From: Alkalicoccobacillus plakortidis
Lineage (GTDB): Bacteria; Bacillota; Bacilli; Bacillales; Bacillaceae_D
Reading direction: 5' to 3'
Length of the DNA stretch: 64,000 nucleotides
Assembly (NCBI RefSeq): GCF_023703085.1
Contig: NZ_JAMQJY010000001.1
Location: forward strand, 992,001 to 1,056,000
The notes under the pieces were generated by a model. It did not search any database and was not told where the DNA came from. It saw only the letters and a list, made by a program, of their open reading frames with translations. Within the stretch, counting starts at the first letter, position 1. Every line of letters starts with the position of its first letter. Made by a program: the position numbers and the translations under genes. Shown here one piece after another: positions 3,391-62,039 of the stretch.

Positions 3391-4337
3391 ATGGAAAAGT
3401 CAACAAAACCAGCATATGGCGGTCAAGCCATAGTTGAAGGTGTTATGTTCGGTGGAAAGCACACAACCGTCTCAATGATTAGAAGAAAAGATGGAAGCTT
3501 AGATACGTTTGAGGTTAAGCGTCAGTCACCAGCTTGGATCACAAAAGCAAAAAAGATTCCTTTTATAAGAGGAATTGCTGGCATTGTTGAAGCAAGTATA
3601 AATGGATCAAAGCATTTAAATTTTTCAACGGATCGTTATGATGTGGATCCTTCTGAGGATGATTCAATTGCCCCAAGCAGAGAAATCATCAAAATTAAAT
3701 TTGATACTTGGTGTTGCAGCAGTCGCTGTTTTATCATTTATCTTCAGTAAGTTAATCTTTACATTAGTTCCAAGCCTTTATAGCCAATCTGTTTACGCCT
3801 ATTTTCCCTGGCCACGTAGCTCAGAATCTATTAGAAGGTGGATTTAAGTTAATCTTATTACTTGGCTATATTTATATTTTATCGTTTACACCATTAATTC
3901 GCCGAGTCTTTCAGTATCACGGGGCAGAACACAAAGTGATCAACACTTACGAGTCCGGACTACCGTTAACTGTGAAAAATGTTCAGTCTCAGTCTAGACT
4001 CCATTACCGCTGCGGAAGTAGTTTCATTCTATTTACAGTAATTGTTGGTGTTGGAATTTATCTTTTTCTTCCCTTTGATTCACTAATGGAGCGTATTTTA
4101 CAACGAGTCGTTTTCATTCCAGTTGTGCTTGGTGTTTCATTTGAAGTATTACAATTAACGAATCGTTTTCGAAACATACCTGTACTAAAATGGCTTGGGT
4201 ACCCCGGGCTTGCCCTTCAGCTATTAACAACAAAAGAGCCAAACGATGAACAAACAGAGGTTGCCATCGCATCCTTTGAAGAAATGCTTACACGTGAACA
4301 ATCATATACAAGCCCTGCAAAAGCAGACATCGTTTAG
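3391..4337 (+). CDS. yqhQ: YqhQ (DUF1385) membrane protein, two frameshifts as sequenced
   Basis: The DUF1385 protein is recognised from its start (YGGQAIVEGVMF), its middle (ILGVAAVAVLSF) and its end (VFQYHGAEHKVIN, LHYRCGSSFILFT, LLTTKEP). The three parts lie in three reading frames. Removing one A from CCAAGC at 3673-3678 and one from CCAAGC at 3770-3775 restores a single continuous frame of about 315 codons, including the bridging stretch VPAFIANLFTPIFPGHV. Both lesions fit the window-wide indel signature, so the gene is probably intact. Function is unknown. yqhP follows closely. Confidence 0.85.
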
Positions 4338-4364
4338 CTATTTGACATCTTGGAGGTGAATAGA

Positions 4365-4793
4365 ATGCGCCAATTCTTTAACATTGCCTTTCCAGTCATC
4401 ATTGTGTTGGCAGTTATCGGATTTGTCTTTTCGGTATTGAATGATCCGATGCAAGTCCTAAAGTCGATTCTTATACTTGCAGGTTTCATCGCGTTATTTT
4501 ATTTCATTTATCGCTTCTACTTGTCCAGAAAATACGGCATGCCTATTATGGGTTCTAGGTCCAAGGAAGGTCCTACACGAGCACAACTTAAAAAAGCAAA
4601 ACGAACAAGTACAGTGCGTTCGACTGGGCCAGGAAATCGAAACAAATTCAAACCCAATAGCACAAGCCAAATGAAAAGAAATCAAAAACCGCTAAAAAAA
4701 ATACCAAAAAAACGAAGCGGTCCAAATTTAACAGTTATTGAAGGCAAAAAAAATAAAATCAAACCCAAAAAGAAGAATCGTGCTTCCTACTAG
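4365..4793 (+). CDS. yqhP: YqhP small membrane protein
   Basis: 142 residues: two predicted membrane helices (about 4-25 and 32-53), then a very basic tail rich in Lys, Arg and Asn. ATG 4365 is preferred because GGAGGTGA sits 7-8 bases upstream; the alternative TTG 15 bases earlier overlaps that site. Order and sequence type match YqhP of B. subtilis (SA1362-like family, function unknown). It is probably co-transcribed with yqhQ. Confidence 0.85.
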   Translation: MRQFFNIAFPVIIVLAVIGFVFSVLNDPMQVLKSILILAGFIALFYFIYRFYLSRKYGMPIMGSRSKEGPTRAQLKKAKRTSTVRSTGPGNRNKFKPNSTSQMKRNQKPLKKIPKKRSGPNLTVIEGKKNKIKPKKKNRASY

Positions 4794-4811
4794 CACGATT
4801 CTTCTTTTTTT
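4773..4811. terminator. Bidirectional terminator between yqhP and yqhO
   Basis: AAGAATCGTGCT (4773-4784) pairs perfectly with AGCACGATTCTT (4792-4803), followed by a T run. It overlaps the end of yqhP and serves the convergent pair. Confidence 0.9.
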
Positions 4812-4819
4812 AATAATCT

Positions 4820-5710
4820 TCAATAGGTCCACCTACCAAGGAACTTGTTGGTTTTTGTTTCTCCAAGCGTAATTAAATCCTGTTTTTCTAAGGGGGTCAG
4901 ATCAAAATCTGTTGCTTTAATATCTGTTACAGGAATAAAGATGACATTCTCTGCATCCTCATCTTCAATATGACGCGTATCATGAGCTGTTGTCATTGTA
5001 TCAAAAACCGCTTTATACAAATCAATCGCATTTTTTATTTTATGAGGCGGTTGATCCTCAATTTTTGGCTTAAGCTGTAAACCAATTACGGGGCGTCTCC
5101 ATGAGTTTTTTTCGCCATCCCGAAATAACCAAATAGGAAAATTACTTAAAAGACCTCCATCAACAATATAAGAATAATGTCCTGCTCGATCATATAGTTT
5201 TACCGGTTCAAAGAAATAAGGAATACTGCAACTCATACGGATCGCTTTTGCTACAGAAAATGATTCCGCACGAATGCCATACTTTTCAAGGTCGTCTGGC
5301 AATACAATCATTTGACCTTTTGATAAATCAGATACAACCACCCTTAATGCTTTGTCAGGTAGATCCCCAAATGTTACAATACCTTTTTCCTTTAAAAGAT
5401 CTCGAATCCAGCTTTCTAATGCGTCACCGCGATACAAACCCAACTTAAAATACACATGCAACCACTTAATAACCGTTAGCGGCAAAAAGGACATTCGATC
5501 ATCCTTAAAGGATTCGATGTTTATCTGATCAAGTATATTCATCATCTCTTCACTCGTATACCCTGCCTTTACAAGGGCAGCCACAATTGAACCTGCACTA
5601 GTCCCTGCAACTCGTTCAAACTCATAGCCTCTTTTCTCTAAAACCCGCAAGGAACCTAGAAACGCAAAAGCTTTAACTCCTCCTCCAGCAAACACAGCGT
5701 CAATTTTCAC
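4820..5710 (-). CDS. yqhO: Patatin-like phospholipase (YqhO)
   Basis: A 296-residue patatin-fold serine hydrolase, probably acting on acyl lipids. The oxyanion loop GGGVKAFAFLG is at 9-19, the nucleophile Ser38 is in GTSAG, and the dyad Asp184 is in VDGG. The start is GTG 5710, preceded by AGGAGG. It sits between yqhP and mntR as in B. subtilis. The physiological substrate is unknown. Confidence 0.9.
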   Translation of the reverse strand: MKIDAVFAGGGVKAFAFLGSLRVLEKRGYEFERVAGTSAGSIVAALVKAGYTSEEMMNILDQINIESFKDDRMSFLPLTVIKWLHVYFKLGLYRGDALESWIRDLLKEKGIVTFGDLPDKALRVVVSDLSKGQMIVLPDDLEKYGIRAESFSVAKAIRMSCSIPYFFEPVKLYDRAGHYSYIVDGGLLSNFPIWLFRDGEKNSWRRPVIGLQLKPKIEDQPPHKIKNAIDLYKAVFDTMTTAHDTRHIEDEDAENVIFIPVTDIKATDFDLTPLEKQDLITLGETKTNKFLGRWTY

Positions 5711-5781
5711 TAGAATCTCCTCCTGCCATCATGTTATGTATCAAAACATCGGCATATGTTTAAGGCAGTTAGGGTTTAGAC

Positions 5782-5818
5782 AAAAATAGCACCAAAAAGC
5801 TATATAGCTTCTTGGTGC
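5782..5818 (-). terminator. Terminator after mntR
   Basis: On the minus strand the stem GCACCAAGAAGC...GCTTTTTGGTGC (5789-5818) is followed by TATTTTTG. Confidence 0.85.
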
Positions 5819-5823
5819 CTTTG

Positions 5824-6258
5824 TTAATTCTGCTTTGGTTCTTCTTCGTTTTTCTTTTGAACCTCACGTAACTCGTTAATTCGCTCTTGTTTCTCAGTAA
5901 AAAACTGAACAACATCACCAATTCGGTCAATGGCATCCCAACTAATATGATGTTCAATACCTTCAACGTCTTGATAGATATGCTCTTTGTCCACACCAAT
6001 AATGGTCATAAACTCTTCAAGTAACTCATGTCGGTACACAAGCCTTTTTCCAATTTTGTTTCCTTTTGCAGTTAAAATTAATCCTCTATAACGCTCGTAG
6101 ACAAGATATTCACTTTTATCTAACTTTTGGACCATTTTTGTAACGGAAGAAGGATGTACCTCAAGCGCCTCAGCAATATCCGATACTCTGGCATAGCCTT
6201 TCTCTTCAATTAATATATAAATTCGCTCCAGGTAATCTTCCATGCTTGGTGTAGGCAT
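5824..6258 (-). CDS. mntR: Manganese-responsive repressor MntR
   Basis: A DtxR-family metalloregulator that represses manganese uptake genes when loaded with Mn(II). The 144 residues hold an N-terminal winged helix followed by a dimerisation domain. All the metal ligands known from B. subtilis MntR are present at identical positions: Asp8, Glu11, His77, Glu99, Glu102, His103. The C-terminus is rich in Glu and Lys. GGAGGGG precedes the ATG. It lies between yqhO and splB. Confidence 0.97.
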
Positions 6259-6386
6259 ATGGTCCCCTCCAATTTATCAACGAACAGGCACGTAAATGTG
6301 CAGCCGAACTTTTAGTAAAATACCACCATCTATTCTACTATACTTGAGGGTAAATAAACAGTCTAAATCCAGATTAGTCAAAACTG

Positions 6387-7412: not shown

Positions 7413-7593
7413 GTCTGCACTTCCTTTCGTACTCTTAGGGTGCACATGAAAATAACAATCACTTGTGTAACATACTGGTAAATCTATAAATGACTTTTCA
7501 TTTAACAATAATGAGGGTAAAATGATTGACAATTTTTTTGGTTCATGTTCAGATTGTATGGAATTGATAAGAACGATAGCGGAGGTCAAACAA

Positions 7594-8418: not shown

Positions 8419-8449
8419 TCAAAAGAATGATATGAATAAACACTATAAA

Positions 8450-8494
8450 GACGACCGGTTCTGAAATTCAGGACCGGTCGTCGTTTGGTTTTAA
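8450..8494 (+). terminator. Terminator after dat
   Basis: GACGACCGGT (8450-8459) pairs with ACCGGTCGTC (8473-8482), followed by a T-rich tract. Confidence 0.85.
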
Positions 8495-8720: not shown

Positions 8721-10013
8721 ATGAATCATACGCGCAATGATCGATTAGATCAAGTTCAAGAGGATACATTGGTGATTGGCATTGATATCGCCAAATTCAA
8801 GCACTACGCATGTGCTGTGAATGATCGCAGCCGTGAACTTAGTGATGCCTTTCCGTTTCATCAATCAAGAAATGGGTTTCACCACCTCTATGACGAGCTT
8901 GAACAACTAAAGAAGGCTCATCAAAAAACAAACATCCTCATTGGCTTTGAACCAACCGGTCATTACTGGATGAATCTTGCGCAATTTTTAAACCATCATG
9001 GCATTCCTTTTGTCTTGGTAAGCCCGCTGCACGTCAATCGAGCCAAAGAGTTTGATGATAACCTACAAACGAAGAATGACCGTAAAGACGCTCGTGTGAT
9101 TGCGAAAATGGTCACTCAGGGATATTTTAGCTATCCGCGTTTCTTGACTGGCGTAGATGCAGAACTGCGTAATGGCGCAACCCTTCGAGACCGGTTAAAA
9201 AAAGATAGGGCGCGTGTGACCAACCAGATCATCCGTTGGATGGATCGGTATTTCCCAGAATTACATGGAGCCTTTAAAGCCATGGGGAAAACCCTTGTCT
9301 GCATCTTAAAGTACCGTCCCTTACCTGAGGAGTGGCATGATCTTGAGGTAGAGTCTTTTCTATCCGAGATCAAAGAAAAAGAAGCGATCAGGAGCCCCTC
9401 TAAAAAGAGATTGCACAACGTTCAAGTTTTAGCGTCTCAATCCATTGGGTTAACTGAAGGGAACGAGTTTGCGAGACAAGATATTCGTTCGCTCATTGAG
9501 CAGTATGAACGAACTTGTGCGGAGTTAGAAGAAACGAAAGAGACGATGCGAGAGCTCGCTCGACAAGTAGACGCCTATGAGAGTTTAATCTCTATCCCTG
9601 GTATTAGTGAAGAGACCGTTTGTGAATTACTCGCTGAAACGGGGCCACTCACCAACTACAGTCATCCACGCCAACTGACAAAATTAGCGGGATTGACGCT
9701 ATGTGAGAATTCTTCCGGCCAACATCAAGGACGAAAGAGGCTCTCTAAACGAGGAAGACGCCGCTTGCGTTCTCTGCTCTTTCGAGCGGTTCTCCCGCTC
9801 ATCCGGAATAACCAAGCTTTCTTAGATCTCTATACGTACTACATTTCAAGAAGTCAAAATCCGCTTCAAAAGAAGGATGCCTTGGTGGTTCTCTGTAGTA
9901 AGCTATTGAAGATCTTTTGGGGGTTAAGCCATCACCAGATGGCGTTTGATGCTGAAAAGATGAGGAGTGATAGCCCTCCTCTTCAAAAAGCACGATCCTC
10001 GCTCGCTTCATAA
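8721..10013 (+). CDS. IS110-family transposase (DEDD recombinase)
   Basis: A 430-residue IS110-type recombinase. The N-terminal RuvC-like DEDD domain is marked by VIGIDIAKFKH, GFEPTGHYW and TKNDRKDARVIA. The C-terminal Tnp_20 domain carries ISIPGISEETV and LTKLAGLTLCENSSGQHQG, including the serine region proposed to be the second catalytic site. GAGGAGG precedes the ATG. The frame is complete, so the element may be active. Members of this family are guided by a bridge RNA encoded in their non-coding end. Confidence 0.93.
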   Translation: MNHTRNDRLDQVQEDTLVIGIDIAKFKHYACAVNDRSRELSDAFPFHQSRNGFHHLYDELEQLKKAHQKTNILIGFEPTGHYWMNLAQFLNHHGIPFVLVSPLHVNRAKEFDDNLQTKNDRKDARVIAKMVTQGYFSYPRFLTGVDAELRNGATLRDRLKKDRARVTNQIIRWMDRYFPELHGAFKAMGKTLVCILKYRPLPEEWHDLEVESFLSEIKEKEAIRSPSKKRLHNVQVLASQSIGLTEGNEFARQDIRSLIEQYERTCAELEETKETMRELARQVDAYESLISIPGISEETVCELLAETGPLTNYSHPRQLTKLAGLTLCENSSGQHQGRKRLSKRGRRRLRSLLFRAVLPLIRNNQAFLDLYTYYISRSQNPLQKKDALVVLCSKLLKIFWGLSHHQMAFDAEKMRSDSPPLQKARSSLAS

Positions 10014-11511: not shown

Positions 11512-13842
11512 GTTATCTCCTGATCCACTTGATAAGCACCTGGTGAAACCTGTTGTATAAATAAACATTCTTCTCCTAAAGAAAAAAGGACTAATTCATG
11601 CATAGCTCGAGTACAAACAGTATAAAACAACGTTCTCTCATGTTCATGCTTATATACATTTGTTGAAGCATCGTGAACAATCACTGCATCAAATTCAATT
11701 CCCTTAGATAAATAGGAAGGCAACACATGAAGACCGCGTTCAAATTCATATGAATCCTTGGTTAACAGCTTTATTGACAGATTATCTTTAAGTCTGTGAT
11801 ACACTTCTTCGCTTTCAGAGGCCGTTTTAGTAATAATTGCAATCGATTGATGTCCAGCCTGCTTTAACCGCTCAGCTTCTTGGATCATTCTTTGATCAAG
11901 CTTTTGTCTATCTTCTCCTTTAATTAGGAGTGGTTTCTCTCCCTTACGATTAAATGGTTCGATTTGTTCTCCATCTGTAATAAATTGTTTCGTGAAATCA
12001 ACAATGTCCTTTGTTGAGCGATAGCTTTTATTTAACTTCATAACATGATGTTGCTTTTCAGTGTGAAGAGATCCATCAAGCATGGTCAATTGATGTTGAG
12101 ATTGTGCGTAAACAGCCTGATTCACATCACCAAGAATCGTCATGCTTGCAGCTGGATAAATCATTTTTAGGTACTCAAATTGAAAAGGAGAGTAATCCTG
12201 CGCCTCGTCTATAAAAACATGCTGTATGACATGATTTGATTTTATACCCGCTAGCTGATCCTTCACATACAAATACGGGGTAACGTCTTCAAAGAGCATC
12301 GTTTTTTCATCGAGATGACTAAGAGTACGGCTACACATTTGCTCCCAATCAGTCGGAACCTCAGGATGAGATTGCTTAAATAAATTCCTAAACAAGCGAT
12401 CAACATGAATAAACGCCATCTTTTTTACAGCATTTTTTAGAGGCTTAAACTGCTTAGCGACAATCTTCTTAGCTAGCATTTTCCGTTCATACTTTGCCTC
12501 ATCAAAATCAGATTCTTGATCACCATGTTCACTTTGATATTGCTTTTGGACCTCTTGAAAAGCCTCAACACCTAATAATTCTATCTCATCCTCAACCCAA
12601 GCCATTACTTCGCTCAAGTACCTCTAATCGAGTTAACTTAATAAGCAACCAGTCAGCGGTAAGCTTCATTCGATTAGCCATAGAAACGGTTTGCTCTAAT
12701 GAATAGAAGTATGCACTAATGCGCGATGCGTCTATTAGTACCTCGCCCCGAAAACGCACCTGCTTAAATTGCAGTCCTTCTTTAGCTAAACGCTGCAAAT
12801 ACTGATCAATTAGCTCTTTAAAGGCTAAGCTAGATTTAAATTTTATACTAGAGACTTCTTGCTCATATTGTTCGGATGTGGTTACAGTGAGTAGCTTCTC
12901 TGTTTGTGAAAATGCATCCTCAACCTCATAAGCAGATCCAACTCTTTTTTGAACATACTGCTGAAATGTTGTTTGTTCCATATTCTCCTCACCAAGCTCC
13001 GGCAATACCTTTGCAACATAACTATTAAAAAGTGGATTTGGTGAAAAAAGAATCATATTTTTGGCGGCTAATGTTTCCATATGCCGATACAATAAGTAGG
13101 CGGCTCTTTGCAGGGCAGCAGAGGTTTTCCCACTCCCCGCAGCTCCTTGTACCACTAGATACCGGCTTGATTCATTTCGGATTAACTGATTTTGCTCTAG
13201 TTGAATTGTAGCTACAATACTTTTCATTTGAGAATTTGCTTCATTACCGAGAACTTCTTTAAGTAGATCATCACCAATTGTAAGACCTGTATCAAACATG
13301 CTTGTAATACGTCCATTTTGGATGATGAATTGACGTTTTTTTGTCATTTCTCCTTCAGTTGTACCCTCTGGTGATGTGTAATACGCTTCACCTGGTGAGA
13401 AATCATAATATAAGCTTGAAATTGGAGCTCGCCAATCATGAATGAGGAAATTCTGTTTTTGCTCATCTAATAAGGAGGCAACCCCCAAATAGATGGATTG
13501 TACATCCTCTTGACCATCTGCACAAAAATCTATACGTCCAAAGTATGGAGAGCTTTTTACACGCTCTAACGATTTAATTGTTTGGTCCATTTGACCGTGT
13601 GTTCGCTCGCGTTCTCCGAGTAATTCTGATTGCTGTTTAATACTGAACATTGTCTCTAACGCATCTTCAGGATTGTCCATATTTACTGTGACATCTTCCC
13701 AGAAGGTTTTGCGTAGATGAATAATCTCAGATTTAGTTTTTTGGTCATGCTGAGAGAGCGCGTCTATCTCACGTGCGACCTGCTCTTTTATTTGATCGAC
13801 TCTTTGTTGTTCAGCCTCTTTTGAATGAAATTGTTCCCCCAT
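11508..13842 (-). CDS. helD: HelD-like UvrD-family helicase, one frameshift as sequenced
   Basis: A superfamily 1 ATPase resembling HelD, which binds RNA polymerase and recycles stalled complexes. The coiled N-terminal arm (1-100) is followed by Walker A GAAGSGKT at 233-240. The C-terminal half carries HVFIDEAQDYSPFQ (Walker B), GDVNQAVY and SYRST. The halves lie in two frames. Dropping one T from GCTTGG (minus strand; 12597-12602) fuses them into about 777 residues, close to B. subtilis HelD, through the join RSNGWVEDEIELLG. The SDR gene overlaps its end. Confidence 0.88.
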
Positions 13843-16286: not shown

Positions 16287-17633
16287 AACTTAATCGCCGA
16301 ATTATATTAGTAACAACTGTTTGGTTGTTTATCATCTTACTTGTCGTGAACAGTGCTGTTTATTTATTTTTCAAACAGTTTATGGAAGAATCGGAACTTA
16401 ATCAGATTAGTGATCAGGGGCAAGCAGCTATTGAGACGATAGGCAACCACCCCACCCCCAGTTTATTAATGGACAATTATTTAATTGGGGAAGGTATGCT
16501 ACGTGTTGTTCGTTCAGATGATCGTATCGGAAAAACACTCACAAAAAATCCAACATACAGGAACATCCAAGCCACATATACAACAAGTCAAGAAGCAGCT
16601 ATTGTGACGTATGAGAATGCAGAATATGCCATCTCTAGACAGCCACTAATATGGGATGATGGCTCCATTGTTACACTTGAGTTGGTCGAATCAATCGAAC
16701 ATTATTCCAATGCGCTCAGACTACTTCAAACGGTTCTATTAACAGCGTCGCTTCTTGTTTTAATTCCGTCCTTTATTGCGGGTCAGCTGCTAAGCCGATT
16801 TATCTTAACTCCTATTCGGACATTAATTGGCACAATGGATGAAATTAGCCGGAAAGGAACATTTAAAAAGATTAATGTCACATCTAAACAAACGGATGAA
16901 TTAGCTCAAATGAGTGCAACATTTAATCACATGATTGAATTACTTCAGCAAAATTTTGAAAAGCAGCAGCAATTTGTTTCAGATGCTTCACACGAATTAA
17001 AAACACCACTAACTGTTATTGAAAGCTATGCACGTCTTTTAAAACGTTGGGGTAAAAAAGACCCTGCTATATTAGATGAAGCCGTTGAAGCGATCTATTC
17101 AGAAGCTTTGAGGATGCGTGGTATGACTCAGCAAATGCTCGATCTTGCAATGGGGGATAATCAAACAGTTCAACCAATGTCGAGGCTTCATTTATCCAGG
17201 CATCATTAAGGAAACAGCAGAACGAATTAGTCATTCCTTTAATCGTGAAATACAGCTTTCGGCTGATGAGAATATATACGTTTTAGGTCATGAAAATACA
17301 ATAAAACAGCTGCTCTTTATTCTATTGGAAAATGGCATTAAATACAGTGAGCAAGCTCTTCATGTTCAATTATATTCAGATCAAAATCAAGCCACAATTG
17401 AAATAAAAGATACAGGGATCGGGATTCCCCTGCAGGATCAACCTCAAATCTTTGAACGTTTTTTCCGAGTTTCTGAAGACCGAAACCGACAATCTGGCGG
17501 CTCAGGATTAGGACTGTCCATCGCAAAAAAAATTGTAGAACAATACAGTGGCACGATTCGTGTTCATAGTGAACTAGGCAAAGGATCTACTTTTATTGTT
17601 AGCTTGCCAATCCATCAATCTGAGGAGGAGTAA
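16283..17633 (+). CDS. Sensor histidine kinase (YkoH-like), frameshifted as sequenced
   Basis: A membrane sensor kinase paired with the upstream regulator. A first helix (about 9-31), an extracytoplasmic loop, a second helix (about 150-172), HAMP, then the phosphoacceptor helix SDASHELKTPLTVIES. The ATPase domain (ENGIKYSE, DTGIGIP, GSGLGLSIA) lies in another frame starting near 17200. The break is between about 17165 and 17200. Deleting one T from GGCTTC at 17184-17189 gives a continuous protein, but the exact site is less clear than in other broken genes. GAGGAGG at its 3' end serves the next gene. Confidence 0.85.
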
Positions 17634-20350: not shown

Positions 20351-21815
20351 TTATTCCGCTTTTTCATAGCGTAAAACTGGTTTACGTGCAGCCAATGTTT
20401 CATCTAGTCTGCCGATCACCGTGTGATGCGGAGCTTCTTGAACAATCTCTGGATTCTCTTCTGCTTCTTTTGCAATTTGAATCATAGCATCAATAAACTC
20501 ATCTAATGTTTCTTTCGACTCAGTTTCGGTCGGCTCAATCATCATACATTCCTCAACATTTAGTGGGAAGTAGATAGTTGGTGGATGATACCCAAAGTCG
20601 AGTAATCGTTTGGCAATGTCTAGTGTACGAACGCCAAGCTTCTTCTGACGTTTACCTGAAAGAACAAATTCATGCTTACAATGCTGTGTGTATGGCAAGT
20701 CATAATGAGGAGCCAAGCGACGCATCATATAATTCGCATTTAACACGGCATATTCAGAAACCTGACGTAATCCTTCTGGTCCCATTGTTCGAATGTACGT
20801 ATAGGCACGTACGTTAATTCCGTAGTTACCATAATAAGGTTTAACACGTCCAATTGATTTAGGACGATTATAATCAAAGTCATAGCCATCCACCGTCTTC
20901 ACTAAAATAGGCTTAGGTAAGAAGTCGATCAAGTCTTTTTTCACACCTACCGGACCAGATCCTGGGCCACCACCACCGTGTGGTCCTGTAAATGTTTTGT
21001 GTAAGTTCAAATGAACCACATCAAAGCCCATGTCTCCTGGTCTTGCGATACCAAGGATAGCATTTGAGTTAGCTCCATCATAATAAAGTTTTCCGCCAGC
21101 CTCGTGGATAATTGAAGCCATTTCAATAATATAGCTTTCAAATAGGCCTAGTGTGTTTGGATTTGTTAGCATTAAAGCTGCTGTTTCATCACTGACAACC
21201 TCACGTAAATGCTCCAGATCCACAAGACCATGTTCATCTGTGCGTACAGTTACAGACTCAAAACCAGCAACCGTTGCTGATGCAGGATTTGTACCATGTG
21301 CTGAATCAGGAACAATGACTTTCGTCCGCTTGGAATCATTTCTTGCTTCATGATACGCACGAATCATCATCAAACCAGTCCACTCACCATGGGCACCTGC
21401 CGCTGGTTGAAGGGTCACTTCATCCATTCCAGTAATCTCAGCAAGAGACGTTTGCAGGTTATGAAGTAACTCAAGTGAACCTTGAACCTGAGCTACAGGC
21501 TGATAAGGATGAACATTTGCTAGTCCATCAATACGCGCAACATCTTCATTGATTTTCGGGTTGTATTTCATTGTGCAGGATCCAAGTGGATAAAAACCTG
21601 AATCAACACCGTGATTACGCTTCGACAATGCTGTATAATGACGCATGATTTGCAGCTCTGATACTTCAGGAAGTTCAGGCTCATTCACTCGAACATATTC
21701 ATCTGGCAGTAATGAACCTAGATCCAAGCTCTGGAATATCAAGATCAGGCAGGCTATGTCCAACTCGACCAGGTTTGCTTAATTCAAAAATCAACGCTTG
21801 ATTATCTGTGCTCAT
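20351..21815 (-). CDS. gcvPB: Glycine dehydrogenase (decarboxylating) subunit 2, frameshifted as sequenced
   Basis: The PLP-bearing half of the glycine cleavage P protein. Its start ([19 protein letters not shown]) and the remainder are in different frames. Removing one T from GCTTGG (minus strand, 21724-21729) gives [14 protein letters not shown] and about 487 residues, as in B. subtilis. The PLP lysine lies in [17 protein letters not shown]. The ATG overlaps the reconstructed gcvPA stop in ATGA, showing coupling. It is the last gene of the riboswitch-controlled operon. Confidence 0.93.
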
Positions 21816-23165
21816 TGTAATGCCCCCAATTCACTCGCAAATGCATCCAAGCTCTTCTTTTGTACGAACTTCTGTTACACAAATCAACATCTGTCCTAAA
21901 AACGCCTCATCATCACGCTCTAGTTCGTATCCTCCAATAAATCCTTTTTCCAGAAGTTTTTCATTAACGGTTTTTGCCGATTGATCGAGTTGAATCACAA
22001 ACTCATTAAACGTTGGTGATTCATTTACAAGCTTTATACCTTGCTCTTTCAGCTTATTTTTTAAGTACGCAGCCTTTTGGATATTCTGGTACGCCATATC
22101 TTTTACACCTTTTTTGCCAATTGCGGTCATTGCAACGGAAGCCGCTAGTGCATTTAACGCTTGGTTTGAACAGATATTAGAAGTCGCTTTATCTCGACGA
22201 ATATGCTGTTCACGAGCTTGTAAAGTTAGTACAAAACCGCGTTGCCCTTGATCATCAACTGTTTGACCAACTAAACGACCTGGCACTTTACGCATTAACT
22301 TTTTGGTTGTTGCAAAATATCCACAGTGAGGACCACCATATTGCATAGAAATACCAAAAGGCTGTGCATCTCCAACAACAATATCCGCTCCAAATTCACC
22401 AGGTGACTTCAACAAACCTAACGCAAGTGGATTACTTGATACAGCTAATAAAGCCTTACCTTGATGCGTAATTTCTTCGATTTCCGCTAATGGCTCAATG
22501 TGCCCAAAGAAGTTAGGATATTGAACGAGTACACAAGCAGTATCATCGTTATACTGTTCTCTAAGCTGGTTTACGTCCGTTACACCATCTTTTGTATCAA
22601 TCTCAACGACTGTTAAACTTTGTCCATACGCATTTGTTTTTAAAACCGCACGAGCTTCCGGATGAACAGCTTTGGAAACCAGGATTGTTTTCTTTTTAGT
22701 ATGACCACAGCTCATCATTGCGGCTTCCGCAAGCGCGGTTGGACCATCATACATAGAGGAATTCGCTAAATCCATGCCAGTTAGTTCACAGATCATACTT
22801 TGAAATTCAAAAATTGCTTGTAGTTCTCCCTGTGAGATCTCAGGCTGATACGGTGTATACGCCGTGTAAAATTCCGAACGCGAAATGACGTGATTCACAA
22901 TCGATGGAATATAATGATCGTAAACTCCCGCCCCTAAAAACGACGGCGTGCTTTTTACGGAAACGTTTTTTGCTGCAAGCCCTTGGAAAAATTTAATCAG
23001 CTCGGGTTCTTTTAATGCTTTTTCAATATCAAGCTGTCCCTTAAAGCGAATTTCCTTTGGGATATCAGCAAACAATTCTTCAATTGATTCAACACCAATT
23101 GCTTCAAGCATCTCTTTGCTATCGGTTTCTGTCATTGGTAAATAACGATTATTCATCTTCAACAA
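21812..23165 (-). CDS. gcvPA: Glycine dehydrogenase (decarboxylating) subunit 1, 3' end frameshifted as sequenced
   Basis: Partner subunit of the P protein, catalysing glycine decarboxylation and transfer of the aminomethyl group to Gcv[25 protein letters not shown] and GRLVGQTVD are typical. As written the frame stops at 21831 after [10 protein letters not shown]. Removing one T from GCTTGG (minus strand, 21847-21852) gives [16 protein letters not shown], ending at 21812 in ATGA overlap with gcvPB, about 450 residues. The defect sits in the same GAGCTTGGAT context as the one in gcvPB. Confidence 0.93.
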
Positions 23166-27494: not shown

Positions 27495-28129
27495 ATGGCT
27501 TGGACACAGATTCCGCTTGGACCGATCCAAACAAATGCATATGTTCTTACAAATTCAGAAGGTGACGCACTAATTTTTGATCCAGGTGGTGACGCAGATA
27601 CACTCATTCATTGGTTAAACGAAAACCAACTAAAACCACTGGCGATTTTACTGACACATGCCCACTTTGACCATATTGGCGCAGTAGACGATGTACGGGA
27701 TGCTTTTTCCTTACCAGTCTATCTACACAAGGAAGAAGAAAACTGGTTAGGTGATCCAGAGCTGAATCGCTCCACTGCATTTCTTGGGCGGACAAAGGTA
27801 ACAGCAAAGCCAGCAGAGCATATTCTCACAAAGGAACAACCGTTACAGATCGGCTCATTCACATGTGATGTGCTTGAAACACCTGGACATTCACCTGGTA
27901 GTGTCTCCTTCTACTTTAAAGAAGAAGACATTGTCTTTTCAGGAGATGCCCTTTTTTTGGAAGTGTTGGACGCACTGATTTGCCAGGTGGAAACCACCAA
28001 CAACTCATCGCAAGCATCAACTCAAAATTAATGGAATTACCCGAGGAAACGATTGTGGCATGTGGCCACGGTCCAACAACAACAATCTCAGCTGAAATGG
28101 ATTCAAATCCTTTTCTAAATGCCTTGTAG
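27495..28129 (+). CDS. yqgX: Metallo-beta-lactamase-fold hydrolase (YqgX), frameshifted as sequenced
   Basis: A glyoxalase II-like metallohydrolase. The metal motif THAHFDH (His55, His57, Asp59, His60) and [13 protein letters not shown] are clear. As written the frame fails at a run of seven T (27952-27958); one more T restores [16 protein letters not shown] and the end [20 protein letters not shown], giving about 211 residues. This is an ordinary homopolymer slip, unlike most other lesions in the window. AAGGAGG precedes the ATG. Confidence 0.9.
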
Positions 28130-30878: not shown

Positions 30879-32334
30879 ATGATTACATTTTTATGTGGCA
30901 TTATTCTTTTAATTATTGGTTATTTTACGTATGGAAAGGTGGTTGAACGCATTTTTGGTGTGAAAGAAGAAAGACCAACACCAGCTTATGTAAATGCAGA
31001 TAGCGTTGATTATGTACCAATGAGTACACCTAAAAATTCGCTCATTCAGCTTTTAAATATCGCCGGTACAGGACCTATTTTCGGTCCAATAATGGGCGCA
31101 CTTTATGGTCCAGTTGCATTCATTTGGATTGTAGTAGGTTGTATCTTTGCAGGTGCTGTTCATGATTACTTAACAGGTATGATCTCCATTCGAAACAAAG
31201 GTGCACACTTGCCTGAATTAGCTAGTAAGTTTTTAGGTAAAGCAATGAAACATGTTGTCAATGCTTTTGCTATTTTATTATTATTATTAGTTGGTACAGT
31301 TTTTGTTTCAACTCCAAGCTAGTTTGCTTCATCTCTTAATGAATGGTCGAATTGCTCTAGGTATACTAATTGCCGTCATATTCATCTATTACATCCTTGC
31401 AACCTTGTTACCTGTTGATAAAATCATTGGTCGAGTATATCCATACTTTGGCGCACTACTGGTTGTAAGTACGCTAGGAATTGGCATCGGCATGATTGTA
31501 ACAGGAGCACCTATTCCAAATATATCTTTAACAAATTTCCACCCAGAGAATTTACCAATTATGCCACTTATTTTCTTTACGATTACATGTGGTGCACTAT
31601 CTGGGTTTCACGCAACTCAAACACCTATCATCTCTAGGACAACAAAAAATGAAAAACAGGGTCGTAAGATCTTTTACGGCATGATGATTGCAGAAGGCAT
31701 TATCGCAATGATATGGGCTGCTGCAGCTATGAGTTTGGTAAATGGTTACGGTGGATTAAATGAGATGCTTGCAGCAGGAGGTCCAGGGGCCATTGTGACC
31801 GAAGTCTCAACGGTTATGCTTGGCGCAATTGGCGGCACAATTGCTGTTCTTGGTGTGGTTGTTCTTCCTATTACTTCTGGCGATACGGCATTTAGAAGCG
31901 CCCGGATGATCATCGCTGAATACTTCAATATTTCTCAGAAAAAAATATCCAAGCGATTTTTAATTGCTTTCCCTCTATTTGCGATCTCTGTTATGTTAAC
32001 ACAAATAGACTTTAATATATTGTGGAGGTATTTCAGTTGGGCTAATCAAGCGACAGCGGTCATAGCACTCTTTGTCGGGGCAATGTATTTATATATCGCT
32101 AAGAAAAATTACTGGATTTCATTAATCCCTGGAAGTTTTATGCTTGTTATGGTTATCACCTATATTCTAAATGCTCAGATAGGATTTAGAATGCCTATGA
32201 CAGCATCTTGGATTGGTGGATTAATTGGAGCAATTCTTCTAATTGCACTCTTTTTCAAAGCGGGTAATAAAGCTAGAGCTCGTAACATTCCGCTTGAAAT
32301 AGATGTTTCTTACTGGAAAAAAGATTCTGCGTAA
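30879..32334 (+). CDS. CstA-family carbon starvation transporter, frameshifted as sequenced
   Basis: A polytopic membrane transporter of the CstA/BtsT family (peptide or pyruvate uptake). IAGTGPIFGPIMGALYGP, FHATQTPIISRTTKNEKQGR and VVLPITSGDTAFRSARM are family signatures. The short form, about 484 residues, is reached by removing one A from CCAAGC at 31314-31319, giving VFVSTPASLLHLLMNGRIA. AAAGGAGG precedes the ATG, and a perfect cre site lies just upstream, predicting glucose repression. It is transcribed against the comG genes between which it lies. Confidence 0.9.
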
Positions 32335-32986: not shown

Positions 32987-33062
32987 TGGCTGGGCTACCT
33001 GGGATCGAACCAGGGGAATGACGGAATCAAAATCCGTTGCCTTACCGCTTGGCTATAGCCCA
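32987..33062 (-). tRNA. tRNA-Gln (UUG)
   Basis: Acceptor TGGGCTA/TAGCCCA, anticodon loop TTTTGAT, GGTTCGATCC T arm, encoded CCA. A second, divergent tRNA-Gln lies at 35661. Confidence 0.94.
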
Positions 33063-35549: not shown

Positions 35550-35660
35550 TCATTCACCTTCCTTCTGTTTGTGCATTAACGAGTAAGATTCGACGTTTTT
35601 CTGTCTTTCCCTGCACATGCATAAAAAAAATTCACAGCACATACTTAATTTAGTGATCAT

Positions 35661-35730
35661 TGGGCTATAGCCAAGTGGTAAGGCAGCGGACTTTGACTTC
35701 GTTAGCGTTGGTTCGAATCCACTAGCCCAG
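35661..35730 (+). tRNA. tRNA-Gln (UUG), T stem one base short
   Basis: TGGGCTA/TAGCCCA acceptor, anticodon loop CTTTGAC. The T arm reads GTTGG-TTCGAAT-CCAC, where a CCAGC would complete the five-pair stem and normal length. The missing G lies in the CCAGC motif hit by most indels in this window, so it is probably a sequence error. If real, this copy would be defective while the cluster copy remains normal. Confidence 0.85.
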
Positions 35731-35734
35731 TAAC

Positions 35735-36179: not shown

Positions 36180-38523
36180 ATGCAAACAGCGTTTTATCAA
36201 CATAAATTAACGAATCTTATGACCACTGACCGCAGTGAGTGGCAGCGTATTTATCAAGCCTGCAAGCGTGGAGAAGTCACCTGTGCGCACTGTCAGGAGC
36301 CTGTACGTATGCATATGAGTATAAATAAGGCGCCTTACTTTGACCACCCAAAGTCCTTATTTGATTGTGCCAAACAAGTTCAGAAACTTGAGCAGACACG
36401 CGTTAATAAAGATCAACCCAAAACCGAAGCGGTTGGTACAAATGTGGGTGGATTTATTTTACCCAAAGGGCGCTCCATTGAGTCCACGTCCTCAACAGAA
36501 CCTGTATTATCCTGGAAGGACCCTGAACATATACGTGCCTTTCCCGATTTCACGAAGTCTGCGCCTCCTAGTAAAGATCATTCAGATTCATACAGGATCG
36601 TACTTGAACAATCTGGTGTCATCCTCGATTCCGCTCAGTGGCAGGCTGTTATTAAAACGGAAGGTCCACTTCAACTAGTTGCAGGAGCTGGCAGTGGGAA
36701 AACACGTGTATTAACAAGTCGTGCGGCCTACATGCTTAATCATGTGGGTATTCCTCCCGAGCAAATGATCCTTGTGACCTTTACAGCAAAAGCTGCACGT
36801 GAGATGAAAGAACGAATGCAGATCTATCCAGGTATTAATAAACCAACCTTACGAAAATTAATGATTGGAACGTTCCATAGTATTTTTTACAAAATGTTAA
36901 TTCATCATGAGCCTGAAAAATGGGATAGTCGTTACCTACTTAAGGAGTGGCAGCGATCTCAGATCATAAAAGAAGCAGGTCGCGAAATGGGTTTGGAAGA
37001 GAAAGAATTTGCATTTGATCAAGCTCTGACACAAATTAGCTTGTGGAAAAACCACTTAGTGAGTCCCGAGCAAGTAAAACCTGCTGATGTTTGGGAAGAG
37101 CGTTGTTCCTATTTATACAGCCGTTATGAAGAAACAAGGAAAAATCGTTCTGCATTTGACTTTGATGACATGTTAACAGGCTGCTATGACTTGTTAGTAC
37201 ATAACGACACGTTACTTAAACGATATCAAACTCGTTTTTCATATGTCTCAGTTGATGAATTTCAAGATATAAATAAAATTCAATTTAAACTCATTCAGCT
37301 TTTGTGTGAACCTCAGCGTAATCTATGTGTGGTTGGAGATGATGACCAATCGATTTATGCGTTCCGTGGAAGTGATCCTGAGTATCTACGTTCCTTCAGC
37401 TCCTTATATCCAGAAGGACAAACAATTATTTTAGACCAGAACTATCGATCTACTCATCCTATTGTTTCCCTTGCGAATAATGTCGTTACCAGTAACAAGA
37501 AGCGGATGAGTAAGCAGCTGGAGGCTCAGACTACTTCAGATACAGTTCCGTTCCTCTTTTTCCCATATGATGAAGAAGAGGAAGCTACAATGATTGTTAC
37601 GGATATTAAAGAACGAATCGAACAAGGGGCTAGCCCCTCAGAATTCGCCATTTTGTATCGAACAAATGTCCACTCGATGGCTTTGTTTGAGCGTCTAATC
37701 CAATCAAGCATTCCATTTGTCGTAGAACAAGATGGTGAGTCCTTTTACAAGAGAAAAGTAGTCAAGAAGGCTTTAGCTTACCTACGAATTTCTCAGCACC
37801 CTGACGACACTGACGCGATGTCTGATCTTATTGGTGCGTTATTTTTAAAACAAGAAAGACTAACGGAAATCAAACGACTTAGTATTATGCAAGATTGCTC
37901 ATTGCTTGATGCGCTTAAACACCTTGATGGACTTAAACCATTCCAAGCTAAAAAAGATGGAGGACCTGCAAGCTCAATGTTTGGATATTAGCAAAGCTAC
38001 TCCTGAGGCAGCATTAACTCTTATTGAAAAAGAGCTTGGCTTTAAAGACTACCTGAAGAAACAAGGAAACGAAGGAAATAAAATGGACAAAGGTAGCGAT
38101 GATCTCGCCAGACTTAAGGTATCGGCACGACAACATAACACCATTCACTCTTTTCTACAGCATGTGGATCATATGATTGCTAAACAAGAGGAACAACGCC
38201 AGCAGCCGGCAAGTTCAGATGCCGTTCAACTGATGACGATCCATCGCTCCAAAGGACTTGAATTCAATACCGTCTATATTTTAGGAGCTGTTGAAGGCTC
38301 GATGCCACATGATTATGCACTTGAAGCCTGGCGCGATGGTGACGATCAACCGCTTGAAGAGGAACGACGACTCATGTATGTAGCTATGACCCGTGCTGAA
38401 GAACATCTCGCTGTTTCTGTACCAATGATGTATAGAGGTAAACGAGCTCAACGATCACGTTTCGTTCGTGAAATGAGCAGACGGACTGCCCCACTAAACC
38501 GAACAGAGGTGAAAAACAGATGA
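36180..38523 (+). CDS. UvrD/PcrA-family helicase with N-terminal zinc-like domain, frameshifted as sequenced
   Basis: About 780 residues once one A is removed from CCAAGC at 37943-37948 (join KPFQLKKMEDLQAQ). Residues 1-75 resemble a CoiA-type zinc domain (CAHCQEPVRM, YFDHPK). The helicase core follows: LVAGAGSGKTRVL, VSVDEFQDINKIQ, VVGDDDQSIYAFRGS, DQNYRSTHPIV, LMTIHRSKGLEF, RLMYVAMTRA. This layout recalls B. subtilis YjcD. It overlaps the HD gene in ATGA, so the two are coupled. Confidence 0.9.
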
Positions 38524-39165
38524 ATCAATTGGCCTTACCACTAACGGAGGAATGGGTGCAGATTCAATTGGCTGGTGATACCACAGGACACGATTGGTAC
38601 CATATTAAACGAGTCACAACATTAGCTCAGCATCTCTCTTTGGATACAGATGCAAATTCGACTGTTGTTATTCTCGCTAGTCTCCTACATGATCTAGCGG
38701 ATGATAAAGTGGTCGCAAACGAGGCATCTGGACTTGTTTCTATTACTAATTGGCTAAATAAACTTGACGTTACAGCATCTGATATCGATCATATCTTGCT
38801 CATTATCACTACCATGTCTTTTAAAGCAGGCACCGGAAAGCCTATGCAGACCTTAGAAGGACAAATTGTACAAGATGCGGATCGGCTTGGATGCCCTAGG
38901 TGCGATAGGCATTGCAAGAACGTTTACTTACTCAGGTCATAAACAACAGTCCATGTATGATCCAGAGCTCTCTATCCGTGAAAATATGAGCGTTGAGGAA
39001 TACCGTCATGGCAAATCAAGTGCCATTCACCATTTTTACGAAAAACTGCTTAAGCTACCGGATCAAATGAATACGGTACAAGGCAGAAAATTAGCAGATG
39101 AACGAGCTACATATATGAAAACCTTTCTTGAGCAATTTTATTCTGAATGGTCTTTTGAAGGTTAA
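38520..39165 (+). CDS. HD-domain phosphohydrolase (YpgQ/YedJ type), frameshifted as sequenced
   Basis: About 214 residues. [17 protein letters not shown] and [17 protein letters not shown] fit the HD superfamily of nucleotide phosphohydrolases. The break is one extra T in GCTTGG at 38885-38890; without it QDADRLDALG is restored. It overlaps the helicase stop by four bases. Relatives remove pyrophosphate from nucleotides in vitro; the role next to a helicase is not known. Confidence 0.87.
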
Positions 39166-39211: not shown

Positions 39212-40355
39212 TTAGTTATTTCCAAGCTTCCAGGTCATCGCAATATTTCGCGATAGTTCTTCAAGGTAAACTAAACCATTTGTCATGGCGTCCTCAAGTG
39301 GTATCGCTCCTGGTACAAGTGAATATGCAGCATCTATCCCATGTTTGTAGATCACTTGATGTTCTTTACCAAGCTGTCCTGCAACCGCAATAGTTGGTAC
39401 TCCAAGCCTTCTTCGCTGCTTTAGCTACACCAATTGGCGTTTTACCGAAAATCGATTGATGATCAAGTCTTCCCTCTCCTGTTATCACAAGATCGGCTCC
39501 CGTTACTTTCGCTTCGAAATTTGTCAGCTCAAGTACCAATGTTATACCTGAAGCTAATCTCGGATTAAGGAAGGCTAATAATCCCGCACCTAGCCCTCCA
39601 GCTGCTCCTGCACCAGGTGTATCTCGAATCTCAATTCCAAGCTGTCTCTCCACAACTGCTGCATAATGTGTAAGACCACTTTCTAGTTTCTCTCTAATTT
39701 CAAGAGTTGTTGCTCCTTTTTGTGGTCCATAAATAGCAGTCGCTCCATTTTCACCAAGCAATGGATTGTCAACATCAGTTGCCACTTCAATGGATACTCC
39801 TGCTAGAAGCGGGTTCAATCCATCAGTTTGAATAGTAGTTAACGTATGTAAAGACCCTCCCCCGAAGGATATCTCCTGATTAGCAGAATCAAGTAGTTTT
39901 ACACCTAAGGCTTGTGCCATACCTGCACCACCGTCGTTAGTAGAGCTTCCTCCTAATCCAAGAATAATCCTTTTTGCTCCCTCTTGAAGGGCATTTGCGA
40001 TTAACTCGCCTGTTCCATATGTAGTGGTGATAAGTGGATTACGCTGATCTAATGGCACGTGATGAAGACCTGATGCTGAAGCCATTTCAATGACAGCAAC
40101 GCCATCTTCCTTTGACAATGCATAGACAGCCTCCACCTGATTTCCAAGTGGGCCAGTTACCGTTACATGTTTCAGCTTTCCTTGCAGTGCATCAGCTAAT
40201 GATTCAACAGTGCCTTCTCCACCATCCGCCATGGGGATTTTGAGATACTCAGCATCCGGGAAAATCTGCTTAAATCCATTTTCAATTGCTGTTGCAGCCT
40301 CCATAGCTGAAAAACTTTCTTTAAATGAATCTGGAGCAATGACAATTTTTCTCAT
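39212..40355 (-). CDS. Glycerate kinase, frameshifted as sequenced
   Basis: A GlxK/GarK-family kinase making 2- or 3-phosphoglycerate from D-glycerate. IVIAPDSFKES, MADGGEGTVE, GLGGSSTNDGGAGM and VITGEGRLDHQSIFGKTP are signatures. As written the frame derails at CCAAGC 39402-39407; dropping one base restores AAKKAGVPTIAVAGQLG and a normal C-terminus ending WKLGNN at 39212, about 380 residues. ATG 40355 follows GAGAGG. It lies in one direction with the GntR regulator and opposite the tartrate/malate dehydrogenase. Confidence 0.92.
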
Positions 40356-41246: not shown

Positions 41247-42307
41247 ATGAAAAATTTAAAAATAGCCTCTATTCCTGGGGATGGCGTTGGACGTGAGGTA
41301 GTACCTGCTGGCGAGCAAATCCTACATACAATCGCCGATCTCCATGGTGGTTTAGCATTTGAATTTACCCAGTTCCCTTGGAGCTGCAACTATTATCTTG
41401 AGCATGGTTCAATGATGCCAGAAGATGGACTCGATCAGCTTAAACCATTTGATGCAATCTTTTTAGGGGCAGTTGGTGACCTTAATCTTGTTCCTGATCA
41501 CGTCTCATTGTGGGGGCTTTTAATAAAAATCCGAAGAGAATTTGAACAATCGATTAATATGCGTCCGGCAAAACGATTAAAAGGGGTAACCTCTCCTTTA
41601 GCCAACCCCAAAGACTTTGATTTGTTAGTTGTCAGAGAGAATAGCGAGGGTGAATATAGCTCTATTGGTGGAAAAATTCATCAGGGTGAAGATGAAGTAG
41701 CGATTCAAAACGCTGTTTTCTCTCGTAAAGCGACCGAACGTGCCATGCGCTTTGCATTTGAATTAGCAGGGAAACGCCGCCAACACGTCACAAGCGCAAC
41801 TAAATCAAATGGCATTGTGTACTCCATGCCATTCTGGGATGATGTTTTTAAAGAGGTTTCAAAGGATTATCCTTCCATCCAAACAGACTCCAGCATATTG
41901 ATGCGCTAGCTGCTTTTTTTGTTACACAACCAGAACGGTTTGATGTGATTGTAGCCAGTAACTTATTTGGTGACATTTTAACAGATGTTGGCGCTGCTAT
42001 TATGGGAAGCATCGGTATAGCTCAAGCTGCAAATATTAATGTAAATGGTAAGTACCCTTCCATGTTTGAGCCCGTGCATGGTTCAGCCCCAGATATCGTT
42101 GGTAAGGGACTAGCCAACCCAATTGGTCAGATTTGGACTGCGAAAATGATGCTTGATCATTTTGGGGAGGTAGAGCTTGGAGCTAAATTATTAGATGTAA
42201 TTGAGGAAACGACAACTGCCGGAATGATGACTCCAGATATAGGTGGTCATCATTCAACTATAGAGGTCACAAATGAGATTGTTCGTCGATTAAAGTCTCT
42301 AACATAA
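41247..42307 (+). CDS. Tartrate/D-malate dehydrogenase family, frameshifted as sequenced
   Basis: A decarboxylating dehydrogenase of the isopropylmalate family, about 353 residues. IPGDGVGREV, RPAKRLKGVTSPL, VVRENSEGEYSSIGG, ASNLFGDILTDVGAA and FEPVHGSAPDI fit the tartrate/D-malate branch. The frame fails beside CCAGC at 41890-41894, where one base seems missing; restoring it gives QHIDALAAFFVTQPERFDV. ATG 41247 is nine bases after AAAGGAG. Tartrate dehydrogenases can yield D-glycerate, which the neighbouring kinase would use. Confidence 0.88.
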
Positions 42308-45108: not shown

Positions 45109-49704
<4,596 letters not shown>

Positions 49705-49903: not shown

Positions 49904-51869
<1,966 letters not shown>

Positions 51870-57279: not shown

Positions 57280-57282
57280 CGA

Positions 57283-58302: not shown

Positions 58303-58315
58303 TCTAGGTCCCTCC

Positions 58316-59302: not shown

Positions 59303-59454
59303 CGTACATTCCTCCGATCAATTTGCCTATATACCTTTTCTATGTCTATTCACTTACTGCATATTAGGTTAATGAAAGCTGTTATTCCATACGATTCATT
59401 TTTTTTAGAATGAATACATAAGCTGTAGGAGATATGAGGGAAGGTGGCGCGTAT

Positions 59455-60459: not shown

Positions 60460-60513
60460 GAGACCGGAATAGCTTTTGTACTCAATAAAATAATAGAGTA
60501 ATGCCATCGCTCC

Positions 60514-60557
60514 GGACATACACTCCGCACCCGCAGGAGCAGTCTTCATGTATGTCC
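60514..60557. repeat. Inverted repeat, possible intergenic-repeat remnant
   Basis: GGACATACA (60514-60522) pairs perfectly with TGTATGTCC (60549-60557); the loop contains CCCGCAGGAG, a block also found in the larger intergenic repeat family. There is no T run, so it is not a standard terminator. Confidence 0.45.
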
Positions 60558-60839
60558 TACGCTTGTTTGGTTGATTCTTAAGTAAGGTAGAGTTATTTAT
60601 CGAATAGCGAAGTACCTTAAAAATTGAGTGTTTAATCCAAATTATTTGGCTTGATACTCATTCGTTTCGTAATGTAACAATTTCATTCCATGTTAATTTC
60701 CCAAAATGCTATTGATTTTTTTAAAAGTATAAATAAGTACATTTAGATTTTAAATATCTCCGTACCAAAACACTAAATTTAATAAGGTCGATAAAATATA
60801 CATTTATACACTATTAAAATTCTGAAACACTCTCTAAGC

Positions 60840-60985
60840 GGATGGGAAGGCAATGGCAGGTCGACTCCCTGTGAGAATTACAGGAAGGCTTGAAATGATT
60901 TAGCAAAGCCAAATTAGGCAGGCGACCGTCCAGCGAGACGTGCCCCATCCAAGGAGCGACTAGACTGCAGGTTCCCCTTCTTCTC
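60840..60985 (-). repeat. Degenerate GC-rich intergenic repeat, second copy
   Basis: On the minus strand it reads GTCGCTCCTTGGATGGGGC, ACGTCTCGC, GGTCGCC, then CACAGGGAGTCG. The start resembles the segment at 8520-8640 (CGTCGCTACCGGGATGCGGG), and the end resembles its GGAG block. GGATGGG and CCCATCC can pair. Confidence 0.45.
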
Positions 60986-61004
60986 ATATGTTTATGAAAA
61001 CCAA

Positions 61005-61041
61005 AAGACGGACGGTCCTGATGCGCAGGATCGTTCGTCTT
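61005..61041 (-). terminator. Terminator after the esterase gene
   Basis: AAGACGGACGGTCCTG pairs with CAGGATCGTTCGTCTT (two mismatches). Confidence 0.75.
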
Positions 61042-61081
61042 TATAATTTTATCCTTATATTTCTGTCCCAAGCTCAAATTT

Positions 61082-62039
61082 CTAGCATTCAAGCAGAAAT
61101 TGATAGATGAGATCTTGTTGACCTGGGAGGTGCTCGTGAGCAAAGTCAGGGTAGAGAACATAGCGTTTAGTACTTGTGATTTTATTGTAGGTTGCAAATT
61201 GAGTTGACGGTGGGCAGCTGTTATCCATTAACCCTACACCCATTAACACGTCTCCTTTTATTCGTTCAGCTAAGAATTGAATATCAATATATCCAAGTGT
61301 AGTAAAGAATTCTTTTTCACGTGAGTGTGTCGGATCAAATCGTCTGAAGTAGCTCTCAATCTCCTTATATGAGGAATTGGCTGCGTCAAGCTCCCACACT
61401 CTCTGATAATCACTTAAAAATGGATAATTAGGAGCTAACTTTTTAACAGAAGGTGCTAGTGCTCCACAAACTAGTGTTAATGCGCCACCTTGTGAGCTGC
61501 CAGTAGCCGTAATTCGTTCTGCATCAACTTCTTCAAGTTCCCCTGCAACACGTACTAATTGAGCCGTATCAAGAAAAACGTTTCGGAAAAATAATTGAGT
61601 TGGTTCTTGTACCCCACGAATAATGTGTCCATTTAAGGTATTACCTGTTACTTGTCCATTATCTTCAGATTTGCCCCCTTGGCCACGAACATCCATTGCA
61701 AGTACAGAAAAACCTGATGCTGCGTATCCTAATAAGCTTGACCACTCTGGTGAATGTCCAGAGTATCCATGAAAATGTAGAACAGCTTGGATGAGGTTCT
61801 TCAGAATGCAAAGGTTTTATGTATTTTGCATAAACTCGAGCCCCTCCCACTCCTGTAAAATAGAGATCATAGCATTCTGCGAGAGGTGTTTGGAACTCAC
61901 TCTTTTCTAATTTAACAGCAGGATCTGTTTGTTTTAGTTCGTCTAAGGCATCCTGCCAATATGTATCAAAATCGTCTGGACGTGGATTTATTCCTTTATA
62001 CACATTAAGTGCTTCAAGCGGCATATCTACAAATGACAT
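61082..62039 (-). CDS. CE7 acetyl xylan esterase / cephalosporin-C deacetylase, frameshifted as sequenced
   Basis: About 318 residues. An alpha/beta hydrolase that removes acetyl groups from sugars. HGYSGHSPEW, MDVRGQGG, the nucleophile serine in GSSQGGALTL, an Asp in GLMDNSCPPST and the His in FAHEHLPG are visible. Removing one base from CCAAGC (minus strand; 61785-61790) joins the halves via PHPAVLHFHGYSGHS. GGAG precedes the ATG, and a near-cre site lies about 20 bp upstream. Confidence 0.9.

Follow-up and report, generated by a model that had tools for sequence, protein, structure and literature searches.

Frameshifts at CCAGC sites in an Alkalicoccobacillus assembly are probably consensus errors, with cytosine-5 methyltransferases as candidate writers of a putative underlying mark

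Why do so many genes in a single stretch of a bacterial genome carry a small insertion or deletion (indel) at the same five-letter word? The stretch analysed here, hereafter the window, is 64,000 bases long (positions 992001-1056000 of contig 1, C1) and belongs to an Alkalicoccobacillus genome of 4,366,190 bases in 9 contigs (G000), from a bacterium that is harmless and favours alkaline conditions. A first-pass annotation had listed 15 indels in it, 13 of them linked to CCAGC, and had put them down to a systematic sequence error. Our analysis indicates, with a probability of roughly 94%, that these indels were introduced into the assembly as consensus errors at CCAGC/GCTGG and are not mutations, and that the genes themselves are likely intact. 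A systematic error at this motif is borne out by a frameshift screen against congeners, by differences between the ribosomal RNA (rRNA) copies of the genome, and by published nanopore errors at the same motif. Gene decay is not to be inferred from these indels.

Four congeners (G001-G004) served for comparison, with a DNA identity to G000 of about 71-77% over the stretches compared; the gcvPA protein encoded in the window is 90-95% identical to the nearest named contigs, from Alkalicoccobacillus murimartini, porphyridii and gibsonii. For the screen, 324 kb of G000 (the window with its flanks, C1:972001-1296000) were aligned with the congeners, and indels of 1-2 bases that occur in a single genome were counted where the frames of all others around were open. 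Alignment with at least two relatives was obtained for 252,570 bases of G000, and the aligned columns, some of them double-counted through chunk overlap, came to 334 thousand for G000 and to 112, 331, 146 and 328 thousand for G001, G002, G003 and G004, respectively. The screen revealed 41 coding frameshifts in G000, versus 0, 8, 0 and 2 in the four congeners. A literal CCAGC or CCAAGC stood no more than 8 bases away from 29 of these 41, compared with none of the 10 frameshifts in the relatives; a random position of G000 lies within that distance in 2.1% of cases. When all 1-2 base indels were counted, coding or not, 47/110 were near the motif in G000, versus 0/3, 0/81, 1/40 and 2/94 in G001 to G004. 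The occurrences of CCAAGC and the alignments place the errors on both strands.

Ribosomal RNA supplied the decisive control. Eight small-subunit (16S) rRNA copies are resolved across the 9 contigs, a pattern that fits long reads. Comparison of all eight, including a contig-end copy on contig 8 (C8), at six motif sites over columns 8-1545 yielded 7 deviant site-copies among 48, with five kinds of deviation. A GCTGG site near position 34 is read three ways among the eight copies, as GCTTG in three and as GCTTGG in one. Changes confined to a single copy are CCAGG in the highly conserved word GTGCCAGCAGCCGCGG, whose site we take to be the 530 loop, GTCGG in the highly conserved word GGCTGGATCACC, and CCAAGC near column 1469. 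The C8 copy accounts for three of the seven deviations, and elsewhere the 16S genes have five other variable columns, all substitutions. For 23S rRNA, seven copies were compared over a 2690-column stretch, the C8 copy being dropped for its many scattered differing columns near the contig end; among 42 motif site-copies, four have lost a base and one has gained a base, making 5 deviant, and all remaining columns are invariant. In total, 12/90 rRNA motif site-copies are deviant, and each deviation is limited to one to three copies. Conserved rRNA positions of this kind are not known to vary so between operons, as consensus errors do, and the rRNA deviations are taken as consensus errors. The error form described by the first-pass annotation, an added A giving CCAAGC, was recovered, but the errors are not limited to it, with lost bases and substitutions occurring as well. 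An insertion sequence (IS)-type repeated gene in the window (8721..10013, plus strand) was used as a negative control. It lacks CCAGC and has one CCAAGC, the same in all copies; its five copies in contig 1, each of 1293 bases, show substitutions and zero indels between them, the window copy being 9 substitutions from that at L133 and the other copies 0 or 1. In the C8 operon, close to a contig terminus (L188, C8:62001-68387), 23S differences are numerous and scattered, which low coverage at a contig end might explain.

Within the window, 14 of the 15 listed indels were verified, and the fifteenth, in a kinase gene and given no coordinate, was not located. When aligned by MAFFT with between two and four congeners, 11 of the 13 motif sites showed a one-base difference from every congener aligned there, at printed positions 3678, 3773, 12599, 21726, 21849, 35722, 37945, 38889, 39404, 41891 and 61787. 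Ten sites read CCAAGC in the window, and the extra base is specific to G000 by alignment at nine of them. Alignment, screen and family search agree for a helicase gene with UvrD-type domains, labelled helD by the first-pass annotation (12597..12602), glycine dehydrogenase subunit 2 (gcvPB, 21724..21729), a UvrD helicase gene (37943..37948) and a glycerate kinase gene (39402..39407), all on the plus strand, and for an HD-domain gene (38885..38890) and an acetyl xylan esterase-family gene (61785..61790) on the minus strand. Two extra bases break yqhQ (DUF1385, plus strand), the first (3673..3678) supported by alignment and family search and the second (3770..3775) by alignment and the screen; another, in the gene for glycine dehydrogenase subunit 1 (gcvPA, 21847..21852, plus) and close to its 3' end, is supported by alignment and family search. 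The tenth, in cstA (31314..31319, plus), is the one CCAAGC site in none of the alignments; the fragments on either side of 31314 lie end to end within one A. gibsonii gene, and this contiguity confirms the break.

A one-base difference specific to G000 was likewise found at three sites of other form. The tRNA-Gln(TTG) gene at 35659..35732 (plus) is, by alignment, one base shorter near its 3' end than in three congeners, one of which has CCAGC there. An isocitrate/isopropylmalate-type dehydrogenase gene, called tartrate dehydrogenase in the first-pass annotation, lacks one base beside CCAGC (41890..41894, plus; alignment and screen). A metallo-beta-lactamase-fold gene (yqgX; 27955..27970, minus; alignment and screen) is one base short, and its indel, at 27962 in the alignment, is real. 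This gene had been placed outside the motif set; the congener G003, however, reads CCAGC opposite a run of A in G000, so the site probably began as CCAGC and probably belongs inside the set. A collagen-like gene carries an extra base beside GCTGG near 51252 (51249..51260, minus), and comparison of its 183-base repeat copies confirmed this break, since two of the three copies lack that base. The collagen-like gene, with its 183-base tandem repeat, extends over 49904-51869.

Counts of the motif were compared with shuffled sequence and with the congeners. The window holds 51 CCAAGC versus 26.2 (standard deviation 4.8) in shuffles, and 60 CCAGC versus 78.8 (standard deviation 9.4). The genome-wide comparison with relatives that the first-pass annotation had proposed gave 3178 CCAAGC in G000, or 728 per Mb; the rates in the four congeners, computed from rounded genome sizes, range over 507-544 per Mb. 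By extrapolation, the excess would amount to about 850 sites genome-wide, and the screen rate of 41 in 253 kb to about 700 broken frames. The forward strand of the G000 contigs carries more CCAAGC (1756) than the reverse strand (1422). In an analysis of 5- to 7-mer enrichment against the congeners, CCAGC was the most depleted 5-mer, but compositional differences between the species blurred which flanking base matters. An early impression that only TCCAGC and CCCAGC are affected failed in a larger sample and was dropped, and the numbers in aligned-site tallies were too small for use.

Both the artefact and this very motif are known from a 2023 report on Listeria monocytogenes, in which the nanopore errors of the ST1081 strain R20-0026, one of 12 strains, were all centred on GCTGG (CCAGC) (PMC10687267). 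Whole-genome amplification lowered its mismatches from 5670 to 16, and the authors ascribe the errors to modification and leave the mechanism unclear (PMC10687267). The Listeria case shares with G000 the 5-mer, the restriction to one strain and the survival of errors through polishing; it differs in genus, in that its errors are mostly mismatches whereas added and lost bases stand out in G000, and in that the errors were demonstrated there by amplification and Illumina sequencing, whereas here they are read from relatives and repeated genes (PMC10687267). In nanopore R10 assemblies of Neisseria meningitidis (2025), 74.76% of erroneous indels fell at a methylated site or the next base (PMC12506013). 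As in G000, those indels are at or adjoining the affected sites and depend on the strain, but the covered main text names no motif, and CCAGC and GCTGG were not found in it (PMC12506013). Two nanopore papers that mention the genus Alkalicoccobacillus do not, as far as their covered text goes, concern this genome. New here are the genus and a short list of candidate writers.

The errors could arise as follows. The cell would modify CCAGC/GCTGG, with a cytosine-5 (C5) methyltransferase as the writer, and a nanopore-type platform would misread the modified word, as the literature suggests, so that polishing fails. At a minority of sites the misreading would add a base (CCAAGC), drop one or replace one. 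Many open frames would thereby be broken on paper only, in a manner that is motif-locked in the sampled 324 kb and would reach hundreds of cases genome-wide by extrapolation. A misread base-modified motif was also the explanation offered by the first-pass annotation; it gains indirect support from the occurrence of C5 methyltransferases in G000 and in only one of the four congeners, and we infer the base itself.

Profile searches for writer families (PF00145, PF01555, PF02086, PF07669, PF02384 and dndC) showed that the strong methyltransferase matches in G000 are cytosine-5 enzymes. The C5 family PF00145 was matched at four places in G000, at one in G001 and at none in G002-G004. Two of the four form a tandem pair (within C1:2593278-2595615, minus strand). 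The others are of prophage type, one at C1:16932-17876 (gene L181:6836-7897) and one at C1:1647716-1648231 (gene L182:7590-8264), of which only half the domain lies in the open frame. The same searches gave no match in G000 to PF02086 or to PF01555, which we take to be the family related to type III Mod (ModD1-like) enzymes. PF07669 was matched below the cut-off only, and PF02384 once above it, with a similar score in all four congeners.

The tandem pair belongs to a cassette outside the window, at L180:3875-13107 (C1:2587875-2597107, L180 being C1:2584001-2604000). Its genes, all on the minus strand, encode an HNH protein, the C5 methyltransferases M1 (388 amino acids (aa), L180:10500-11666) and M2 (414 aa, L180:9245-10489), a 232-aa protein with no family match, an McrB-like ATPase (494 aa, L180:5694-7178) and a DUF2357/PDDEXK_7 protein (602 aa, L180:3875-5683; PDDEXK_7 E 1.5e-31, plus DUF2357). 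M1 and M2, both matched by PF00145, together span C1:2593245-2595666. The McrB-like assignment is based on about 40% identity over 73% of the length to proteins named as McrB-family among the best 120 of 7987, and all Pfam AAA matches of this protein fell below the cut-off. Protein relatives of M2 reach 87% identity, in Bacillus, among the best 120 of 6979, and no Listeria name occurs among those 120. Intact CCAGC is absent from the 9.4 kb of the cassette and CCAAGC occurs six times, though few are expected at 31% G+C, and the spacer upstream of M1, searched as a clue to self-regulation, contains no CCAGC, CCAAGC or GACGC. The gap L180:7893-9244, between M2 and the restriction genes, contains a broken stretch whose translation resembles an IS21-type ATPase.

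LlaJI combines two 5-methylcytosine (5mC) methyltransferases with McrBC-like restriction subunits and recognises the non-palindromic GACGC/GCGTC (PMC1459862); LlaI, BsuMI and LlaJI have been grouped together (PMC2614495). The cassette resembles LlaJI and BsuMI in its tandem C5 pair with McrB-like and PD-(D/E)XK proteins on a single strand (PMC1459862; PMC2614495), and differs from them in a 1.35-kb gap and in two additional genes, those for the 232-aa protein and the HNH protein. LlaJI likewise targets a non-palindromic 5-mer (PMC1459862), although a different one, CCAGC being the putative target of the cassette here. We favour M1/M2 as the best candidate writer of CCAGC/GCTGG, at about even odds, because a non-palindromic word marked by C5 enzymes would need a pair, one enzyme per strand. 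This reasoning and the methyltransferase inventory make up the entire case for the cassette as putative writer. In the full proposal, the artefact would report on cytosine methylation specific to CCAGC/GCTGG, with a LlaJI/BsuMI-like cassette as its writer; this is tentative, and we place it somewhat below an even chance.

Several observations weigh against this account. In the screen, 12 of the 41 G000 frameshifts lie farther than 8 bases from any literal motif, and at least one of these (window position 17194) may reflect misalignment where a gene ends; judged from the relatives' letters, most of the 12 look like CCAGC sites themselves altered. The Listeria excess consists of mismatches rather than indels, and our screen counted indels only (PMC10687267). 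The nearest plasmid pair, on Lactococcus p275D (66% and 57% identity, among the best 10-15 records), adjoins a different, PLD-domain restriction gene, so that a methyltransferase pair is not by itself diagnostic of a LlaJI-like cassette. The prophage-type C5 enzymes are still possible writers, and strain R20-0026 is described, in the covered text, as having no recognised restriction-modification system, which favours an orphan enzyme (PMC10687267). Neisseria ModD1 (M.Nme579I), the one characterised CCAGC methyltransferase met in the literature covered, is a type III enzyme and marks the adenine (PMC13248616; PMC13248682). Finally, dndC had no match in G000, in a search in which zero control genomes passed the cut-off.

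The same artefact might have a prophage-type C5 methyltransferase as its writer, either the enzyme at C1:16932-17876 or the partial one at C1:1647716. Both belong to PF00145 and sit, as read from translations, among apparent phage genes, and the R20-0026 precedent fits such an origin; yet marking a non-palindromic word should require a separate enzyme for each strand, as the tandem pair offers and as LlaJI has for GACGC/GCGTC (PMC1459862), and the partial gene matches half of the domain only. We consider a prophage-type writer possible but doubtful. Among the best 10-15 of 746 to 5000 records, neither the phage records similar to both prophage-type enzymes and M2 nor the plasmid records similar to M1 and M2 included one with a stated target or one from Listeria.

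The mark could also be something other than 5mC, such as N6-methyladenine (6mA) as written by ModD1, or another base or backbone modification. ModD1 shares the CCAGC target, and an excess of called 5mC or 6mA was not found in the bad Listeria genomes, according to the covered text (PMC13248616; PMC10687267). However, G000 has no match to PF01555, and thus differs from the ModD1 case (PMC13248616), nor to PF02086 or dndC, and almost all methylation-related mismatches in the Neisseria R10 assemblies were put down to 5mC (PMC12506013). We consider a mark other than 5mC unlikely. Basecaller or polisher bias at CCAGC in unmodified DNA would agree with early MinION reads, in which CCAGC and GCTGG were apparently among the under-called 5-mers (PMC5093776), but amplification largely removed the errors at this motif in Listeria, where GCTGG was affected in only 1 of 12 strains (PMC10687267). 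We regard such bias as very unlikely. That CCAGC is a true mutational hotspot, for example through repair loss at a methylated site, with genes really broken, is scarcely credible: the indels are present in the assembly and absent from the congeners, but many core genes would have to be broken at once, individual operon copies show several different outcomes at rRNA positions of high conservation, and the added A does not match the product of cytosine deamination, which converts C to T.

With consensus error as the preferred reading, some hundreds of genes in this species representative would, by extrapolation, be recorded as broken and be taken wrongly for pseudogenes or for lost functions; false bases are present even in the 16S copies of the genome. 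The inventory provides four candidate C5 genes for CCAGC errors of the kind whose source the Listeria paper left unclear. If the cassette proposal is true, the M1/M2 pair gains a specificity, a candidate writer class becomes available for the GCTGG mark in Listeria ST1081, and motif-locked frameshifts in draft genomes could serve to find the specificity of methyltransferases not yet characterised.

Two further features of the window were recorded. An open frame of 1529 aa occupies 45109-49698, and the name collagen-like for it comes from the first-pass annotation. A second tRNA-Gln gene (32987-33062) is longer by one base, at 33013, than its counterpart in each of the four congeners; the additional base, which may be a homopolymer error or natural, lies in a run of G some 20 bases away from a GCTGG.

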